Positions 1,495-41,919 of a stretch of DNA of 53,972 bases are shown piece after piece; the stretch's first letter is position 1; the number at the start of each line of letters is the position of its first letter. This DNA comes from an uncultured Bacteroidota bacterium. GTDB lineage: Bacteria > Bacteroidota > Bacteroidia > UKL13-3. The stretch lies in the NCBI GenBank assembly GCA_903850915.1, contig CAINMV010000012.1, positions 1-53,972 on the forward strand. Direction: 5' to 3'. The translations under genes were made by a program, and so were the position numbers. The notes under the pieces were generated by a model. That model was given only the letters and a program-made list of their open reading frames with translations, was not told the DNA's origin and did not search any database.

Positions 1495-1926
1495 ATGGCA
1501 AAGGAGATTTCAGGATTTGTGAAGTTGCAGGTAAAAGGCGGAGCCGCTAACCCAGCGCCACCAATTGGACCAGCATTAGGTTCAAAAGGTATTAATATCA
1601 TGGAGTTTTGCAAGCAGTTCAATGCGCGCACCCAGGATAAAGCAGGGAAAGTATTACCTGTAATTATTACAGTTTATGCCGACAAGAGTTTCGATTTTAT
1701 TATCAAAACTCCTCCGGTGGCTGTGCAGTTGTTAGAGATTACTAAAGCAAAAGCTGGTTCAGACCAATCCAATCGTAAGAAAGTTGGTTCCATTACATGG
1801 GATCAAGTGAAAGCGATTGCAGAAGGTAAGATGGTGGACATGAATTGCTTTACAGTTGACGCGGCAATGAGCATGGTAGCTGGTACAGCTCGTAGTATGG
1901 GTATCAGTGTAACCGGAACAAAATAA
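1495..1926 (+). CDS. rplK: 50S ribosomal protein L11
   Basis: Encodes 143 residues, the normal length for L11, which forms the GTPase-associated centre on 23S rRNA together with L10 and L7/L12. The N-terminal domain carries the conserved proline-rich segment [16 protein letters not shown] (about residues 21-36). The C-terminal RNA-binding domain ends in the conserved GTARSMGI segment. The ATG start is preceded by a long AT-rich leader without a strong Shine-Dalgarno sequence. It is the first gene of rplK-rplA-rplJ-rplL. Unlike the usual bacterial order, no nusG or secE lies immediately upstream. Confidence 0.98.
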
Positions 1927-2036
1927 TTGAAATGGTAATTCAGCTTTCGAGTTGATAAATCATTTTCAGTTAAAACGTGGGAGCATCTACCAACAAAAAA
2001 TTAGATGCGTTATTACCAAATTTTAATTCAAGTAAA

Positions 2037-2735
2037 ATGGCAAAAATTTCAAAAAAACGCAAATTAGCGTTAGCTAAAGTAGATGGCAACAAGCTATACA
2101 CGCTTGCTGATGCTACTAAGCTTGTAAAATCGATTTCTTACACCAAATTCGACTCTTCAGTAGATTTAGATGTTCGTTTGGGAGTAGATCCGAAAAAATC
2201 AAATCAAATGGTGCGTGGCACTGTTACTTTACCGCACGGAACAGGTAAAACAATCCGTATTTTAGTATTATGTACCCCCGACAAAGAAGCTGAAGCGAAA
2301 GAAGCAGGAGCTGATCATGTTGGATTAGATGAGTACATTGCTAAAATTGAGAAAGGCTGGACCGATGTCGATTTAGTAATTACGATGCCTTCAGTAATGG
2401 GAAAAGTAGGACGTTTAGGTAAAATTTTAGGACCGCGCAATTTGATGCCGAATCCTAAAAGTGGAACTGTAACGTTAGAAATTGGCAAAGCTGTAAAAGA
2501 GGCAAAAGCAGGTAAAGTAGAGTTTAAGGTAGACAAAACAGGTATCATCCATAATTCAGTAGGTAAAGTATCCTTCACCCCTGAGTATTTGGCTGCCAAT
2601 GCTGTAGAGTTAATCCAAAACTTGGTGAAAGCGAAACCTTCATCATCAAAAGGAACTTACCTGAAATCCATCACCATTAGTAGTACCATGAGCCCTGGTA
2701 TTGCCATTGACACCAAATCAATTCCGGGCATTTAA
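2037..2735 (+). CDS. rplA: 50S ribosomal protein L1
   Basis: Encodes 232 residues, as expected for L1, the L1-stalk protein and a translational repressor in many bacteria. The start chosen is ATG 2037 (MAKISKKRK), which fits the family N-terminus. An in-frame GTG at 1977 would add 20 residues unlike any L1 start. Conserved features include [19 protein letters not shown] and the [20 protein letters not shown] segment around residues 125-145. It lies 110 nt after rplK and 26 nt before rplJ, in the same operon. Confidence 0.97.
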
Positions 2736-2761
2736 TTCACAATTTAATTCGTATACCCGAA

Positions 2762-3283
2762 ATGGAACGTAACGAGAAAGATCAAATTATTAGTGAGTTA
2801 AAGCAATTGTTTCAGGATTATCCAGCGTTTTACCTGACCGATACAACGGCTTTAAACTCAAAACAAACAAGCGACTTACGCCGTATCTTGTTTCAAAATA
2901 ATATTAAAATGCAGGTGGCTAAAAACACCCTCATTGAAAAGGCTTTGGAACAATGCGGATTAGATGTTACAGAAATGTGTAGCGTGCTAAAAGGCAATAC
3001 CGCTATCATGTTTAGTAATGACGCTAAAATGCCTGCTAAAATTATCAGAGAATTTCGTAAAAACGCGAAAATCCCTGCATTAAAGGCAGCATGGGCTGAA
3101 CAAACTGTATTCATTGGCGACAATCAATTGCCGGAATTGGAGAAAATCAAAAACAAAAACGAGTTAATCGGAGATGTACTAGGTTTATTGCAATCACCTG
3201 CGAAAAGTGTTATCGGTGCATTACAAGGTGGTGGCCACAAATTATCGGGAATTCTTAAAACGCTTGAAGAAAGAGCCGCATAA
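2762..3283 (+). CDS. rplJ: 50S ribosomal protein L10
   Basis: Encodes 173 residues, the usual L10 length. L10 anchors L7/L12 dimers to the ribosomal stalk base. The N-terminal half is the RNA-binding domain (conserved VAKNTLIEKAL near residue 56), and the C-terminal helix binds L7/L12. The gap to rplA is only 26 nt, too short for a separate L10 leader, so any L10-L12 control would have to act elsewhere in the operon transcript. A 69-nt AT-rich gap precedes rplL. Confidence 0.96.
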   Translation: MERNEKDQIISELKQLFQDYPAFYLTDTTALNSKQTSDLRRILFQNNIKMQVAKNTLIEKALEQCGLDVTEMCSVLKGNTAIMFSNDAKMPAKIIREFRKNAKIPALKAAWAEQTVFIGDNQLPELEKIKNKNELIGDVLGLLQSPAKSVIGALQGGGHKLSGILKTLEERAA

Positions 3284-3352
3284 GCACCCACAAAACAATT
3301 ATTTATTATTCAATTTTTTTATTAATCAAACAAATTTAAATCATTCAATATC

Positions 3353-3724
3353 ATGGCAGACTTAAAATCATTCGCAGACCAGTTAGTAAATCTAACAGTA
3401 AAAGAAGTTAACGAATTAGCTAAAATTTTAAAAGACGAGTATGGCATCGAGCCAGCTGCTGCTGCAGCTGTTGTTTCTGCTGCCCCTGCTGCTGCAGCTG
3501 TTGCTGCTGAGCAAACAGCATTTACAGTAATCTTGAAAAATGCTGGACAAGCTAAATTAAACGTAGTAAAAGTTGTTAAAGACCTTACCGGTTTAGGCTT
3601 GAAAGAAGCTAAAGATTTAGTAGATGGTGCACCAAAACCAGTTAAAGAAAATGTTGACAAAGCTACAGCTGAAGATCTTAAAGCAAGATTGACAGAAGCT
3701 GGTGCTGAAGTTGAAATCAAGTAA
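3353..3724 (+). CDS. rplL: 50S ribosomal protein L7/L12
   Basis: Encodes 123 residues, the normal length. L7/L12 forms the flexible ribosomal stalk that recruits translation GTPases. The N-terminal dimerisation domain (about 1-33) is followed by an Ala/Val-rich hinge (about 34-53) and the globular C-terminal domain with [22 protein letters not shown]. The hinge is encoded by an 18-nt direct repeat at 3456-3473 and 3486-3503. It is the last gene of the operon: a strong intrinsic terminator follows, and no rpoB or rpoC follows. Confidence 0.98.
3456..3503 (+). repeat. Direct repeat in L7/L12 hinge
   Basis: An identical 18-nt block (CTGCTGCTGCAGCTGTTG) occurs at 3456-3473 and 3486-3503. The 30-nt period keeps frame and duplicates part of the Ala/Val hinge. 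Confidence 0.85.
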
Positions 3725-37808: not shown

Positions 37809-37953
37809 CTCCGCTTGTTTCTTTTGAATTTGAATTATTTGCACATTTGTGGATTATAACATCCGTATTTGTTTTAATGTGCTCATAAAAAAACATCTTT
37901 TTATATGGTTTTTGGTTTGACATTCGCTTAATTTGAAGAAATACCGTTTTATC

Positions 37954-39945
37954 ATGAAGATTAAACTTACCCTCTTTTTCGTATTAATAGCTTTTAATAT
38001 TTTGTATGCGCAAACATCAAAAGACCTTACTGTTTCATTAACAGCGGTGGCTAATTTATCCCCAGCCTCTATTACCTTAAAATGGAAAGTTGATCCAACA
38101 GCATCTTATTATGCTATTTACAAAAAAACACGAGATGCCAATAAATGGGACTCAATAAGTAAAGTGAGTAATACAATAAGCACATACACTGATTTGGCTG
38201 TTGTTATAGGCGGAAGCTATGAATACATGGTTATCAAACGTAGCTCTACATTGGTTTCTGTGAGTTATGTGCTTGCGGGTATTCAAAAAAATTTACCGTA
38301 CAATAGAGGAAAAATGCTTTTAATTGTAGATAAAAATTACGCCATTCCGCTTTATACTGAAATAAAGCAACTTGAAAATGATCTCCGTGGCGACGGTTGG
38401 ATTGTGATTCGTCACGATGTAAACAGAACGGATGCCGTAACAGCAGTGAAGCAAATAATTCTAAATGATTTCAATGCAGATCAGCAGAATGTAAAGTCGG
38501 TTTATCTTTTAGGCCATATTCCAGTGCCATATTCTGGAGGTTTTGATTTACAACAATATTATCCTCCTGATGGTCATCCTGATCATGTGGGAGCTTGGCC
38601 CGCCGATTTATATTATGGCACGATGAATGAATCGATTTGGACGGATAATTCATTTACGAATACTGCAGGCTCCCGCACAGAAAACCATAATATTCCGGGA
38701 GATGGTAAATTTGATAATGCCTATATTTATAATGACACAGTTACCCTACAAGTAGGACGTGTCGATTTGTTTAATTTACCTGCTTTTGGTGTTAGTGACA
38801 CTGTTTTAATGCGACGTTATTTAAATAAAGCGCATAACTTCAAAATTGGAATTAATGTAGGACAAAGGAGAGGTTATGTAAGCGATAATTTTGGCTTCAT
38901 GGGAGGTGAGGCTTTTGCAAGTAGCGGTTGGCGCGCACTTACGCCTATGTTTGGCGATTCGGTATTTACAATTGCCAGTGGCGGTTATTTTAGCACTCTC
39001 GATTCTAAATCATCACAATTTGTTTATGGTTGCGGAGGTGGTTCGTACACTAGTTGCGGTGGAGTAGGAGCAACCTCAAATTTTGTTACGGATAGCCCGT
39101 TGTATAACTTCGGAATGCTATTTGGTAGCTATTTTGGGGATTGGGACGCACAAGATAATATTTTGCGTGCACCCTTGGCTTCTAAAGGGTGGACGCTAAG
39201 TAATTCATGGAGCGGAAGGCCTTACAACTATTATCATCAAATGGCGATGGGTGAAAATTTGGGATATTGTATTCAGCGGTCTCAAAACAACTATCCCTTG
39301 TATGTTTATAATATCTATCCAACTTTTGTTTATATATCGCTTATGGGCGACCCAAGTTTGCGTATGAATCCTGTTTTGCCTGTTTCGAATGTAGCACTCA
39401 CTAATAGTGCGGATAAGAAGAAAACAACAATTCGTTGGAATAAATCCAAAGATCAAAGTGTAACTTCTTATGCTGTATATCGGTCACCGTCAAAATCTGC
39501 ACCATTTGTGCTTTCTGGGAGCGTTCCATCCAGCGATAGTATTTTTATAGATAACGGACCGTATAATGGTTTAAATTATTTTATGGTTAAGGCTATCCGT
39601 CCAGAAACCACCGCAAGTGGTACATATTGGAATACGAGTATAGGAGTTCAGGATACTATTACATCTATTAATACTTTAGGTGTTTCCAAGCCAAAGCAAG
39701 ATGGATTTGCCATGTATCCGAACCCGGCGAATAGCATTTTGCATTTTTCAAATGAATTTGGAACTGATGCTACCTATGATGTTGTTGTATATAACGTAGA
39801 TTCAAAATTGGTAATGCGTAATACTTGGAATAATGATGATTCTCAATTCCAATTAGACATTTCGAGTCTGATGCCAGGTGTTTATGTGGTAAGTATACGT
39901 CAAAATGGAGCCGTTATCCATACCGAGAAACTTATAAAAATGTAG
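37954..39945 (+). CDS. T9SS-secreted C25 (gingipain)-fold protein, possibly catalytically inactive
   Basis: Encodes 663 residues from ATG 37954 (MKIKLTLFFVLIAFNILYAQ, signal peptide). A fibronectin type III-like domain (about 25-110) leads into a caspase-like C25 domain. Gingipain-type landmarks are VYLLGHIPVPYS (resembling the LVGD-x-IP strand) and YISLMGDPSLRM at its end. A second FN3-like domain follows (about 470-565) and a type A T9SS sorting domain closes the protein (YPNPANSILHF through TEKLIKM). Where gingipains have the catalytic GHG and C, this protein reads GCGGGS and GSYFGDW, so the His/Cys dyad seems absent. A TTG at 37933 is a less likely start. Confidence 0.8.
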   Translation: MKIKLTLFFVLIAFNILYAQTSKDLTVSLTAVANLSPASITLKWKVDPTASYYAIYKKTRDANKWDSISKVSNTISTYTDLAVVIGGSYEYMVIKRSSTLVSVSYVLAGIQKNLPYNRGKMLLIVDKNYAIPLYTEIKQLENDLRGDGWIVIRHDVNRTDAVTAVKQIILNDFNADQQNVKSVYLLGHIPVPYSGGFDLQQYYPPDGHPDHVGAWPADLYYGTMNESIWTDNSFTNTAGSRTENHNIPGDGKFDNAYIYNDTVTLQVGRVDLFNLPAFGVSDTVLMRRYLNKAHNFKIGINVGQRRGYVSDNFGFMGGEAFASSGWRALTPMFGDSVFTIASGGYFSTLDSKSSQFVYGCGGGSYTSCGGVGATSNFVTDSPLYNFGMLFGSYFGDWDAQDNILRAPLASKGWTLSNSWSGRPYNYYHQMAMGENLGYCIQRSQNNYPLYVYNIYPTFVYISLMGDPSLRMNPVLPVSNVALTNSADKKKTTIRWNKSKDQSVTSYAVYRSPSKSAPFVLSGSVPSSDSIFIDNGPYNGLNYFMVKAIRPETTASGTYWNTSIGVQDTITSINTLGVSKPKQDGFAMYPNPANSILHFSNEFGTDATYDVVVYNVDSKLVMRNTWNNDDSQFQLDISSLMPGVYVVSIRQNGAVIHTEKLIKM

Positions 39946-39971
39946 TCATTAAATACAATAGGATATATTAC

Positions 39972-40124
39972 TCAATATATACGTTTTAGAACATGATGAA
40001 GGTGGCTATTTTCAGCATTCCGAAAGCTCAATTGTTCAATACTATGTTCATCGCCATTCAATCCAGTGTCGTGCCACATGATGATTTGTATGCTTTTTAT
40101 TATGCCTCCTATGTTGCTCATCAT
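39972..40124 (-). pseudogene. Relic of a type I DNA methyltransferase subunit (HsdM N-terminus)
   Basis: A 50-codon minus-strand frame starting with two ATGs. Residues 5-33 read IGGIIKSIQIIMWHDTGLNG then DEHSIEQLS. This matches the start of one HsdM subgroup as I remember it (pattern I-x2-IM-x-D-x-G-hydrophobic-x-GD-x6-EQLxW). After EQLS the family continues with LFLKIFD-type residues, but here the frame changes to unrelated sequence and ends. No methylase catalytic motif remains. The call rests on memory of the family pattern and needs a search. Confidence 0.45.
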
Positions 40125-40142
40125 TTTGTTTTTAATTTATTT

Positions 40143-40204
40143 GGCTAAAGTCAATAGGTGTTAATGATTTTTTTAAAATAATGGGCTAAAGCCACATTCC
40201 TATT
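40143..40204. repeat. Degenerate palindromic intergenic repeat candidate
   Basis: GGCTAAAG occurs at 40143-40150 and within the palindrome GGCTAAAGCC at 40184-40193. AATAGG (40153-40158) and CCTATT (40199-40204) form an outer inverted pair. GGCTAAAGCC next to CCTATT recalls scattered intergenic repeats of Bacteroidota genomes. One copy in one window cannot prove a family. Confidence 0.4.
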
Positions 40205-40334
40205 CAATACAATGAAAAATGAATTGCATTTTACTTTCGATCATGCGGGATGCGGCTTGCAAATGTTTATTACTTTGTAGGATTGGCATTGTTGACTAAT
40301 TAGGTTGTTTCCATAATTTTTATTTCACCTTCGG

Positions 40335-40605
40335 TTAATTCTTAAAGATGGTAAACCAATTGGTCTTGAAACCTTCAATTGCAGCCCTGTTCGGTTTTAC
40401 CTTTAAAAAGGATTTGTTGAGTGCCTTTCTAGGTTTCAATCCTTTTAATTCCAAATACAATTTATATTCTAATTTCAGTCGATTAAGATAAGTTTTAATG
40501 TCGAAATGATGGTAGTGAGTTAGCAAAAAAGTGTCCCATTTTATGCCCTTGTCTGTCTTTTTATAATAACCACTAACTAACGAACAAATCGCGCGACTAA
40601 ACCGT
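40335..40605 (-). pseudogene. Orphan C-terminal open frame, probable gene remnant
   Basis: The minus-strand frame runs from just after a TGA inside the end of the NfeD gene to a stop at 40335, about 90 codons. It has no ATG; a TTG (40526) would give 63 residues. The encoded text is protein-like and Lys/Tyr-rich (GYYKKTDKGIKWDTFLLTHY, then LNRLKLEYKLYLELKGLK). I do not recognise the family. Absence of a start and overlap with the upstream gene suggest a 5'-truncated remnant. Confidence 0.4.
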
Positions 40606-41919
40606 CTTCACCCAAATCATCATCGCATTTTCTTTGTAAACCATAACCTCTGTTCGTGCATCAATAAATTCGCCACTGCTAACAGCATTGAACATATTTC
40701 CATTGATTTCCACTTTTCCTTGAGGTTTTAATTCTGTGATGGTTATTCCTTTGCAGTTAAGAACACTCTCACGATGTAAAATGCTATTCGATAACTTAGA
40801 ATCGGCTAGTGTTTGTGTATGCGCTATTTTCTCAAAGAAGTTTTCACTTACGATAAATCGACTTAGTATTAGTAGCAAAATAATGCTGCCTATAAATGAT
40901 AAACTAACTACCGCCAAGGCTAGATTTAGTGAGCTTTTGCCAACGTAATCAAAATTGAAGTAGTTGTTGTTTACCAACGCAAGTATCAACGACGAAATCA
41001 TAAATATAATGCCTGAAATACCAGCCACACCGAACCCTGGAATCACAAAAATTTCAAGTATTATTAGCGCCAATCCAATAAAAAAAACTATAATTTCCCA
41101 ATTGGCAGCAAGACCTTCAAGGTAATTTGGTGCAAAATATAAAAGTGCTGCAATCATGCTAACCCCAATGGGAAATAAAGCTCCTGGGTGTTGAAATTCG
41201 AAATAGATACCACCTAAAATTAATAATATTAACAATCCACTTAAAAATGGCGCTCTTAAAAAGCCCAAAAATTGATCAAGGGTAGTTGGCTCAAATTCTA
41301 TTATGGTACATTTTGTTAGTTGGGTGCGTTCAAGAACTTCTTGAACTGAATTTAACTTTGCTTCACAATAGCCATATTTTATGGCCTCTTCAGCGGTGAA
41401 GGTAATCACTTGTCCTTTTTTGTTGATGCTGTCAACCACAATATTCCCATCCACCATACCTTCTGCAATATCGCCTCTGCGATTGTTTTGTGTTGCTGTA
41501 CTTCGCATAATCGCGCGCATATAGCTTTGGTATTTGTCGGGTAAAAGTTCACCACTTTGATTTACAACAGACGCAGCCCCAATAGTACTTCCGGGGTTCA
41601 TATAAATGCTATCACACGCCAAACTTATTAATGCTCCAGCGCTAGCGGCATTGTTGTTTATATAAACATACACTGGTATCTGCGAATTTAATAGGGTTGT
41701 TCTTATGGAATCGGCTTCATCGAGCAGCCCCCCATAGGTATTCATTTCTATAATTATCGCAACGGCATTGATGGATTTAGCCTTTTGAAATGCTTTTTGG
41801 GTAAAATGCCATGTTTTTGGAGAAATTTCATCTTTTAGTTTAAAAAGAAGAACATTTTGCTGTCCTTCTGCTAATAGGGTGCCTAGGCACCATAAAGATA
41901 CAAAAAATAGTTTTTTCAT
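40597..41919 (-). CDS. NfeD-family membrane-bound ClpP-class serine protease
   Basis: Encodes 440 residues. A signal peptide or first membrane segment precedes a ClpP-like domain with the nucleophile in AASAGAL (S93) and the oxyanion-type loop MNTYGGLLDEADS. Four or five hydrophobic segments follow (about 215-350), then a C-terminal OB-fold NfeD domain (about 370-440, GKVEINGNMFNAVS). Long NfeD proteins cleave membrane proteins such as stomatin partners in other organisms. No stomatin gene adjoins it here. The -7 box TATCTTTG (complement of 41928-41935) ends 8 nt before the ATG. Confidence 0.88.
   Translation of the reverse strand: MKKLFFVSLWCLGTLLAEGQQNVLLFKLKDEISPKTWHFTQKAFQKAKSINAVAIIIEMNTYGGLLDEADSIRTTLLNSQIPVYVYINNNAASAGALISLACDSIYMNPGSTIGAASVVNQSGELLPDKYQSYMRAIMRSTATQNNRRGDIAEGMVDGNIVVDSINKKGQVITFTAEEAIKYGYCEAKLNSVQEVLERTQLTKCTIIEFEPTTLDQFLGFLRAPFLSGLLILLILGGIYFEFQHPGALFPIGVSMIAALLYFAPNYLEGLAANWEIIVFFIGLALIILEIFVIPGFGVAGISGIIFMISSLILALVNNNYFNFDYVGKSSLNLALAVVSLSFIGSIILLLILSRFIVSENFFEKIAHTQTLADSKLSNSILHRESVLNCKGITITELKPQGKVEINGNMFNAVSSGEFIDARTEVMVYKENAMMIWVKTV

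Follow-up and report, generated by a model that had tools for sequence, protein, structure and literature searches.

The 651-base gap at positions 39946-40596 of the window (the whole 53,972-nucleotide stretch of DNA that was analysed) is, with a probability of about 0.85, a graveyard of at least two minus-strand restriction-modification (R-M) genes, a DUF7149/Eco57I/TaqI_C gene followed by hsdM, that were lost by large deletions. DNA comparison with relatives demonstrated the 5' end of the hsdM gene and a fusion of the head of the second gene to its own tail. The gap is the site of a minus-strand 50-codon frame (39972-40124), and overall this is a well-supported case, yet one of ordinary gene decay at a rearranged place.

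Genomic setting

The gap is bordered on the left by a plus-strand gene encoding a 670-codon protein (37933-39945) and on the right by an NfeD gene on the minus strand (40597-41919). The first-pass annotation of this DNA had called the left neighbour C25-like, a description that was not borne out by the Pfam search: only the Por_Secre_tail sorting domain scored above the cut-off, the best sub-threshold match was GH85_C (5.8e-5), and Peptidase_C25 gave no match to 37933-39945. Long relatives of the left neighbour are present in all four sister species.

All four sister species carry NfeD and the left-neighbour orthologue on separate contigs; the gap therefore has the appearance of a synteny break rather than of a conserved neighbourhood, a reading that is limited by the draft state of the contigs. 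The sequences 3' of NfeD were a ribosomal-protein block in G003 (the window carries relatives of this block at about 1495-3720) and, in G002 and G004, a gene that begins with MAYNEALANRIRE and is presumably TfoX-like; the NfeD copy of G001 was truncated by the contig end. When the sequences directly 3' of each neighbour were compared with the sister species, nothing exceeded shuffled sequences; the best case, the left flank against G002, had a score that 4 of 100 shuffles reached and was not counted.

Identity and extent of the hsdM ghost

The minus-strand frame exists and encodes the 50 residues quoted in the first-pass annotation, which had recognized in it the N-terminal pattern of a type I methylase (HsdM). 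Comparison with the DNA of intact hsdM genes confirmed this reading. The gap was searched at the DNA level against 41 genomes, including the own genome, and matches were returned in 12. Seven members of the family (G019, G048, G068, G047, G063, G046, and G059) matched the frame at their hsdM loci, with E-values down to about 1e-26 and identities of 78-84% to the hsdM 5' ends in six genomes and 70% in the seventh. The match to G019 covered 40025-40131 and lay at the start of an intact hsdM gene of 478 codons (E = 1.1e-25); under looser settings, 97 of 116 columns (84%) were identical, with bases before the start included. The 478-codon protein contains the N6_Mtase (E = 1.1e-71) and HsdM_N (E = 1.4e-9) domains, and its gene belongs to a cluster with the order hsdR, Abi_2 gene, hsdM, hsdS. 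At the protein level, HsdM residues 1-33 were 76% identical to the ghost (E = 1.2e-13, with the gap alone searched). In an alignment of hsdM 5' ends, from which L106 and L107 were left out, five intact copies (L010, L103, L104, L105, and L108) aligned in register with the start codon of the ghost.

The ghost itself corresponds to codons 1-32 of the type I methylase (40026-40121, minus strand; 84% DNA identity to the G019 hsdM), and the bases 5' of its start (40122-40140, minus strand) still resemble those of relatives; this homology extends to a point between about 40131 and 40140 that differs from relative to relative. Because the hsdM homology ends after codon 32, frame residues 33-50 are not HsdM, leaving only about 32 of the 50 codons that are. 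The N6_Mtase catalytic domain is absent from the frame, which, together with the end of homology at codon 32, identifies it as a fragment and not a functional HsdM. Compared with known type I HsdM proteins (HsdM_N PF12161 plus N6_Mtase PF02384), the ghost is alike in its first 32 codons and start region, whereas it differs in comprising the extreme N-terminus only, with neither the catalytic domain nor hsdR or hsdS alongside.

The accessory genes between hsdR and hsdM differ among related type I clusters, being Abi_2 in G019 (L010, 7762-15769) and other ORFs in G048, G047, and G063 (L103-L105).

A second ghost with a readable deletion joint

A second R-M gene ghost, which the first-pass annotation had not noticed, lies on the same strand of the same gap. 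Its head, together with the upstream region of the gene (40359-40541, minus strand), showed DNA matches at loci of 14 genomes (G043, G069, G018, G017, G079, G001, G013, G053, G046, G075, G023, G039, G058, and G072). At the protein level the head matched L016 (E = 2.5e-14, with the gap alone searched), and in Pfam it gave DUF7149 with E = 9.4e-4, which is below the curated cut-off. A tail of this gene type (40309-40366, minus strand), which contains an in-frame stop, was identified by its DNA match to the last codons of intact genes. Intact copies of 1378 codons (G013) and 1184 codons (G039) contain DUF7149, DUF7814, Eco57I, and TaqI_C domains, and we take this single-protein R-M enzyme to be type IIG-like. 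The head and tail of the ghost match the DNA of such intact genes, whereas its middle is gone, its fusion is out of frame, and its tail contains a stop. The Eco57I methylase and TaqI_C domains are absent: the head match stops at 40359, where the tail match starts.

The joint at 40359-40366 (minus strand) is an 8-base word, AGACCAAT, that is common to the head and the tail. Since the two ends are fused out of frame at this word, the middle of the gene was deleted, and by comparison with the lengths of intact copies the loss would amount to roughly 3.4-4 kb. Among the heads of related loci, AGACCAAT was present in L016, L012, L083, and L112 and altered in L015, L086, and L011; among the tails, it was present in five of the nine loci searched (L015, L016, L112, L011, and L017). 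A simple formula puts the probability that a random joint would show an overlap of at least 8 bases by chance at about 1e-4, which makes deletion between short repeats the likeliest mechanism.

Decayed copies were also found elsewhere in the family. The copy in G001 consists of about 133 head codons followed by the tail, and that in G015 of the tail plus some 95 bases from inside the gene, close to which stops occur; these copies suggest that genes of the DUF7149 type have undergone internal deletion on more than one occasion in the family. A search of the own genome for DUF7149 was negative, with 0 control genomes positive; the same family was positive in 18 of 64 family genomes. A limited literature search returned no paper on DUF7149.

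A possible second joint

A 35-base scrap on the plus strand (39999-40033) showed a suggestive resemblance to a trypsin-like protease gene, its best match among the loci being that in G001 (E = 0.001); the term "trypsin-like" is our own reading, made without a profile match. The scrap overlaps the hsdM ghost by AGCTCAATT at 40025-40033, which is no more than suggestive of a second deletion between short repeats. The trypsin-like gene is present in all four sister species, where it lies two genes downstream of the left-neighbour orthologue and in the same orientation in G001, G002, and G003, and is represented in G004 by only a 44-residue piece at a contig end. It was not found in the own genome.

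When compared with the gene alone, the scrap scored 40 for G001 and 31 for G002, above all 200 shuffles in a test made after the match was known. With a longer downstream stretch as the target, none of the 200 shuffles reached the G001 score, and 3 of 200 reached that of G002. The trypsin-like copy of G003 gave no match to the scrap (148 of 200 shuffles scored as high). At the protein level, the G001 gene matched the gap at a different place with a score that 18 of 200 shuffles equalled, and the genes of G002 and G003 gave no match; given this negative test, support for the scrap comes from DNA alone. The bases past the hsdM joint scored 21 against the R-M region of G019, no better than the shuffle mean of 24.9.

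Evidence for a larger R-M island

The first-pass annotation had proposed that a whole R-M island once lay between the two flanking genes. This proposal stands in part: a second R-M gene ghost adjoins the first, whereas no trace of hsdR or hsdS was seen when two HsdR and four HsdS proteins were compared with the gap (E <= 0.05), a result that counts against a complete island. When 19 proteins in total were compared with the gap at this threshold, the only matches were to HsdM, two DUF7149 enzymes, and an acyltransferase. An intact hsdRMS at this place in relatives, which the annotation had proposed to look for, was not found in the four sister species with their separated flanking genes, and the stretches around these genes showed no match to either R-M ghost, which also counts against the proposal.

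We attribute the acyltransferase match, from G001 (E = 0.005), to chance, since its score was equalled by 9 of 200 shuffled gaps and its counterparts in G002, G003, and G004 did not match the gap. The acyltransferase was also not found in the own genome, in a search run without a positive control, and we place no weight on this absence.

Proposed origin of the gap

We infer that an ancestor carried R-M genes in the gap and that large deletions joined short identical words, namely AGACCAAT and, less surely, AGCTCAATT. The ends left outside the deletions would have mutated freely afterwards, and the second deletion would probably also have removed most of the trypsin-like neighbour. Several points weigh against this origin: the missing hsdR and hsdS traces, the failure to find R-M genes at this place in any relative compared, the poor score of the bases past the hsdM joint against the G019 R-M region, the altered AGACCAAT in some heads, a second joint of 35 bases that did not hold for the G003 copy, the small number of ghost-only changes in the hsdM piece, and a DUF7149 search of the own genome with no positive control. 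The proposed origin agrees with the known picture of R-M turnover and loss. In the portions of PMC4176335 drawn on here, R-M systems are described as turning over rapidly, with frequent total gene loss, and rearrangements accompanying R-M insertion are mentioned. Those portions deal with gene families, whereas in the present case a single deletion joint is directly readable.

The alternative that deserves most attention is that the pieces are short R-M fragments captured as filler during the repair of a break that a rearrangement had opened between NfeD and the left neighbour. The distribution of the flanking genes over separate contigs in all four sisters indicates that a rearrangement did occur, the hsdM piece measures only about 110 bases, and hsdR and hsdS left no trace; we nevertheless regard filler capture as improbable, because the second ghost preserves both gene ends, in order, on one strand, and joined at a common word, as an internal deletion leaves them, and because partly deleted copies of the DUF7149-type gene also occur in G001 and G015.

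Loss by deletion remains our preferred reading. The case shows that short open frames in intergenic DNA, too small for annotation cut-offs, can be recognized as fossils of defence genes once their DNA is compared with that of relatives, even where profiles fail, and the joint at which an R-M gene was deleted is readable in the gap sequence.

Decay of the hsdM frame

Over the 32 codons that correspond to HsdM, seven residues are replaced in the ghost (S5G, N13I, Q17H, A25E, Q26H, R27S, and G32S), compared with two residues that vary among the five intact copies. Within the first 93 bases, four ghost-only changes fell at columns that are invariant in the five intact copies, one silent and three not, which is a small number. 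The contrast between seven replaced and two variable residues points to a loss of constraint.

The 50-codon frame is not a working gene. That it might encode a small HsdM-derived peptide could be argued from its open frame with a start codon, and is nonetheless very improbable: the hsdM piece was unmatched in all four sister species, 18 of the 50 residues, past the joint, are not HsdM, and there are replaced residues at positions that are invariant among the intact copies.

Profile and database searches with the 50 residues were uninformative. Pfam returned only a sub-threshold match to Transglut_core2 (E = 0.098), with no match to the PF12161 profile, and NCBIfam returned nothing. A phmmer search of the PDB gave a single match, to the HsdM structure 3ufb, with a non-significant E-value of 1.4, and a tblastn search of plasmids gave no match. 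A pattern scan of genome contigs for the frame found 105 stretches that fitted the pattern, of which 0 were confirmed. A chance resemblance to HsdM, which these searches taken by themselves would allow, has a negligible probability in view of the DNA E-values, the hsdM loci matched in seven genomes, and the start codon in register, which refute it. A search for the HsdM_N domain was negative in the own genome and positive in 9 of 14 control genomes, and relatives of the G019 HsdM at E <= 1e-60 were found in 15 of 64 family genomes and not in the own genome.

Distribution of the DUF7149 gene tail

The tail of the DUF7149-type gene, roughly 70 bases long, forms the in-frame end of the six intact genes whose 3' ends were available (L015, L016, L110, L111, L113, and L122). 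It also occurs outside annotated-length frames, directly after a Bro-N gene in G001 (L011: 6940-7008 and 7866-7928), a Y1 transposase in G015 (L017: 7204-7272 and 7849-7911), and an ORF in G031 (L123: 4581-4646). In the own genome, it lies 113 bases after a Fic gene (L018, G000:C9, 1728-1793). Further copies were located in broken arrays near contig ends of G018 (L013 and L014), and G053 has a copy at 4001-4066 of L122, upstream of its intact gene. In both L011 and L017, an accessory gene is flanked by a tail copy on each side, and the copies in L017 belong to a 254-base direct repeat.

It is conceivable, although we consider it unlikely, that the tail is a recombining unit that serves as an exchange site for accessory cassettes behind DUF7149 R-M genes, in which case the ghost in the window would be an emptied slot. 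The tail copies after unrelated genes could instead simply be the ends of further lost R-M genes.

Other features of the gap

The stretch between the two ghosts (40140-40308) is composed in part of short repeats that are dispersed through the family, with matches in 22 of 64 family genomes, the own genome included (E <= 0.01). Searching the gap against Rfam yielded no family at the gathering threshold. An imperfect inverted repeat is present at 40366-40383/40422-40439. Within the repeat stretch, the part around 40168-40207 contains the palindrome-like GGGCTAAAGCC, and the part at 40251-40290 is also found near an R-M cluster in G063.
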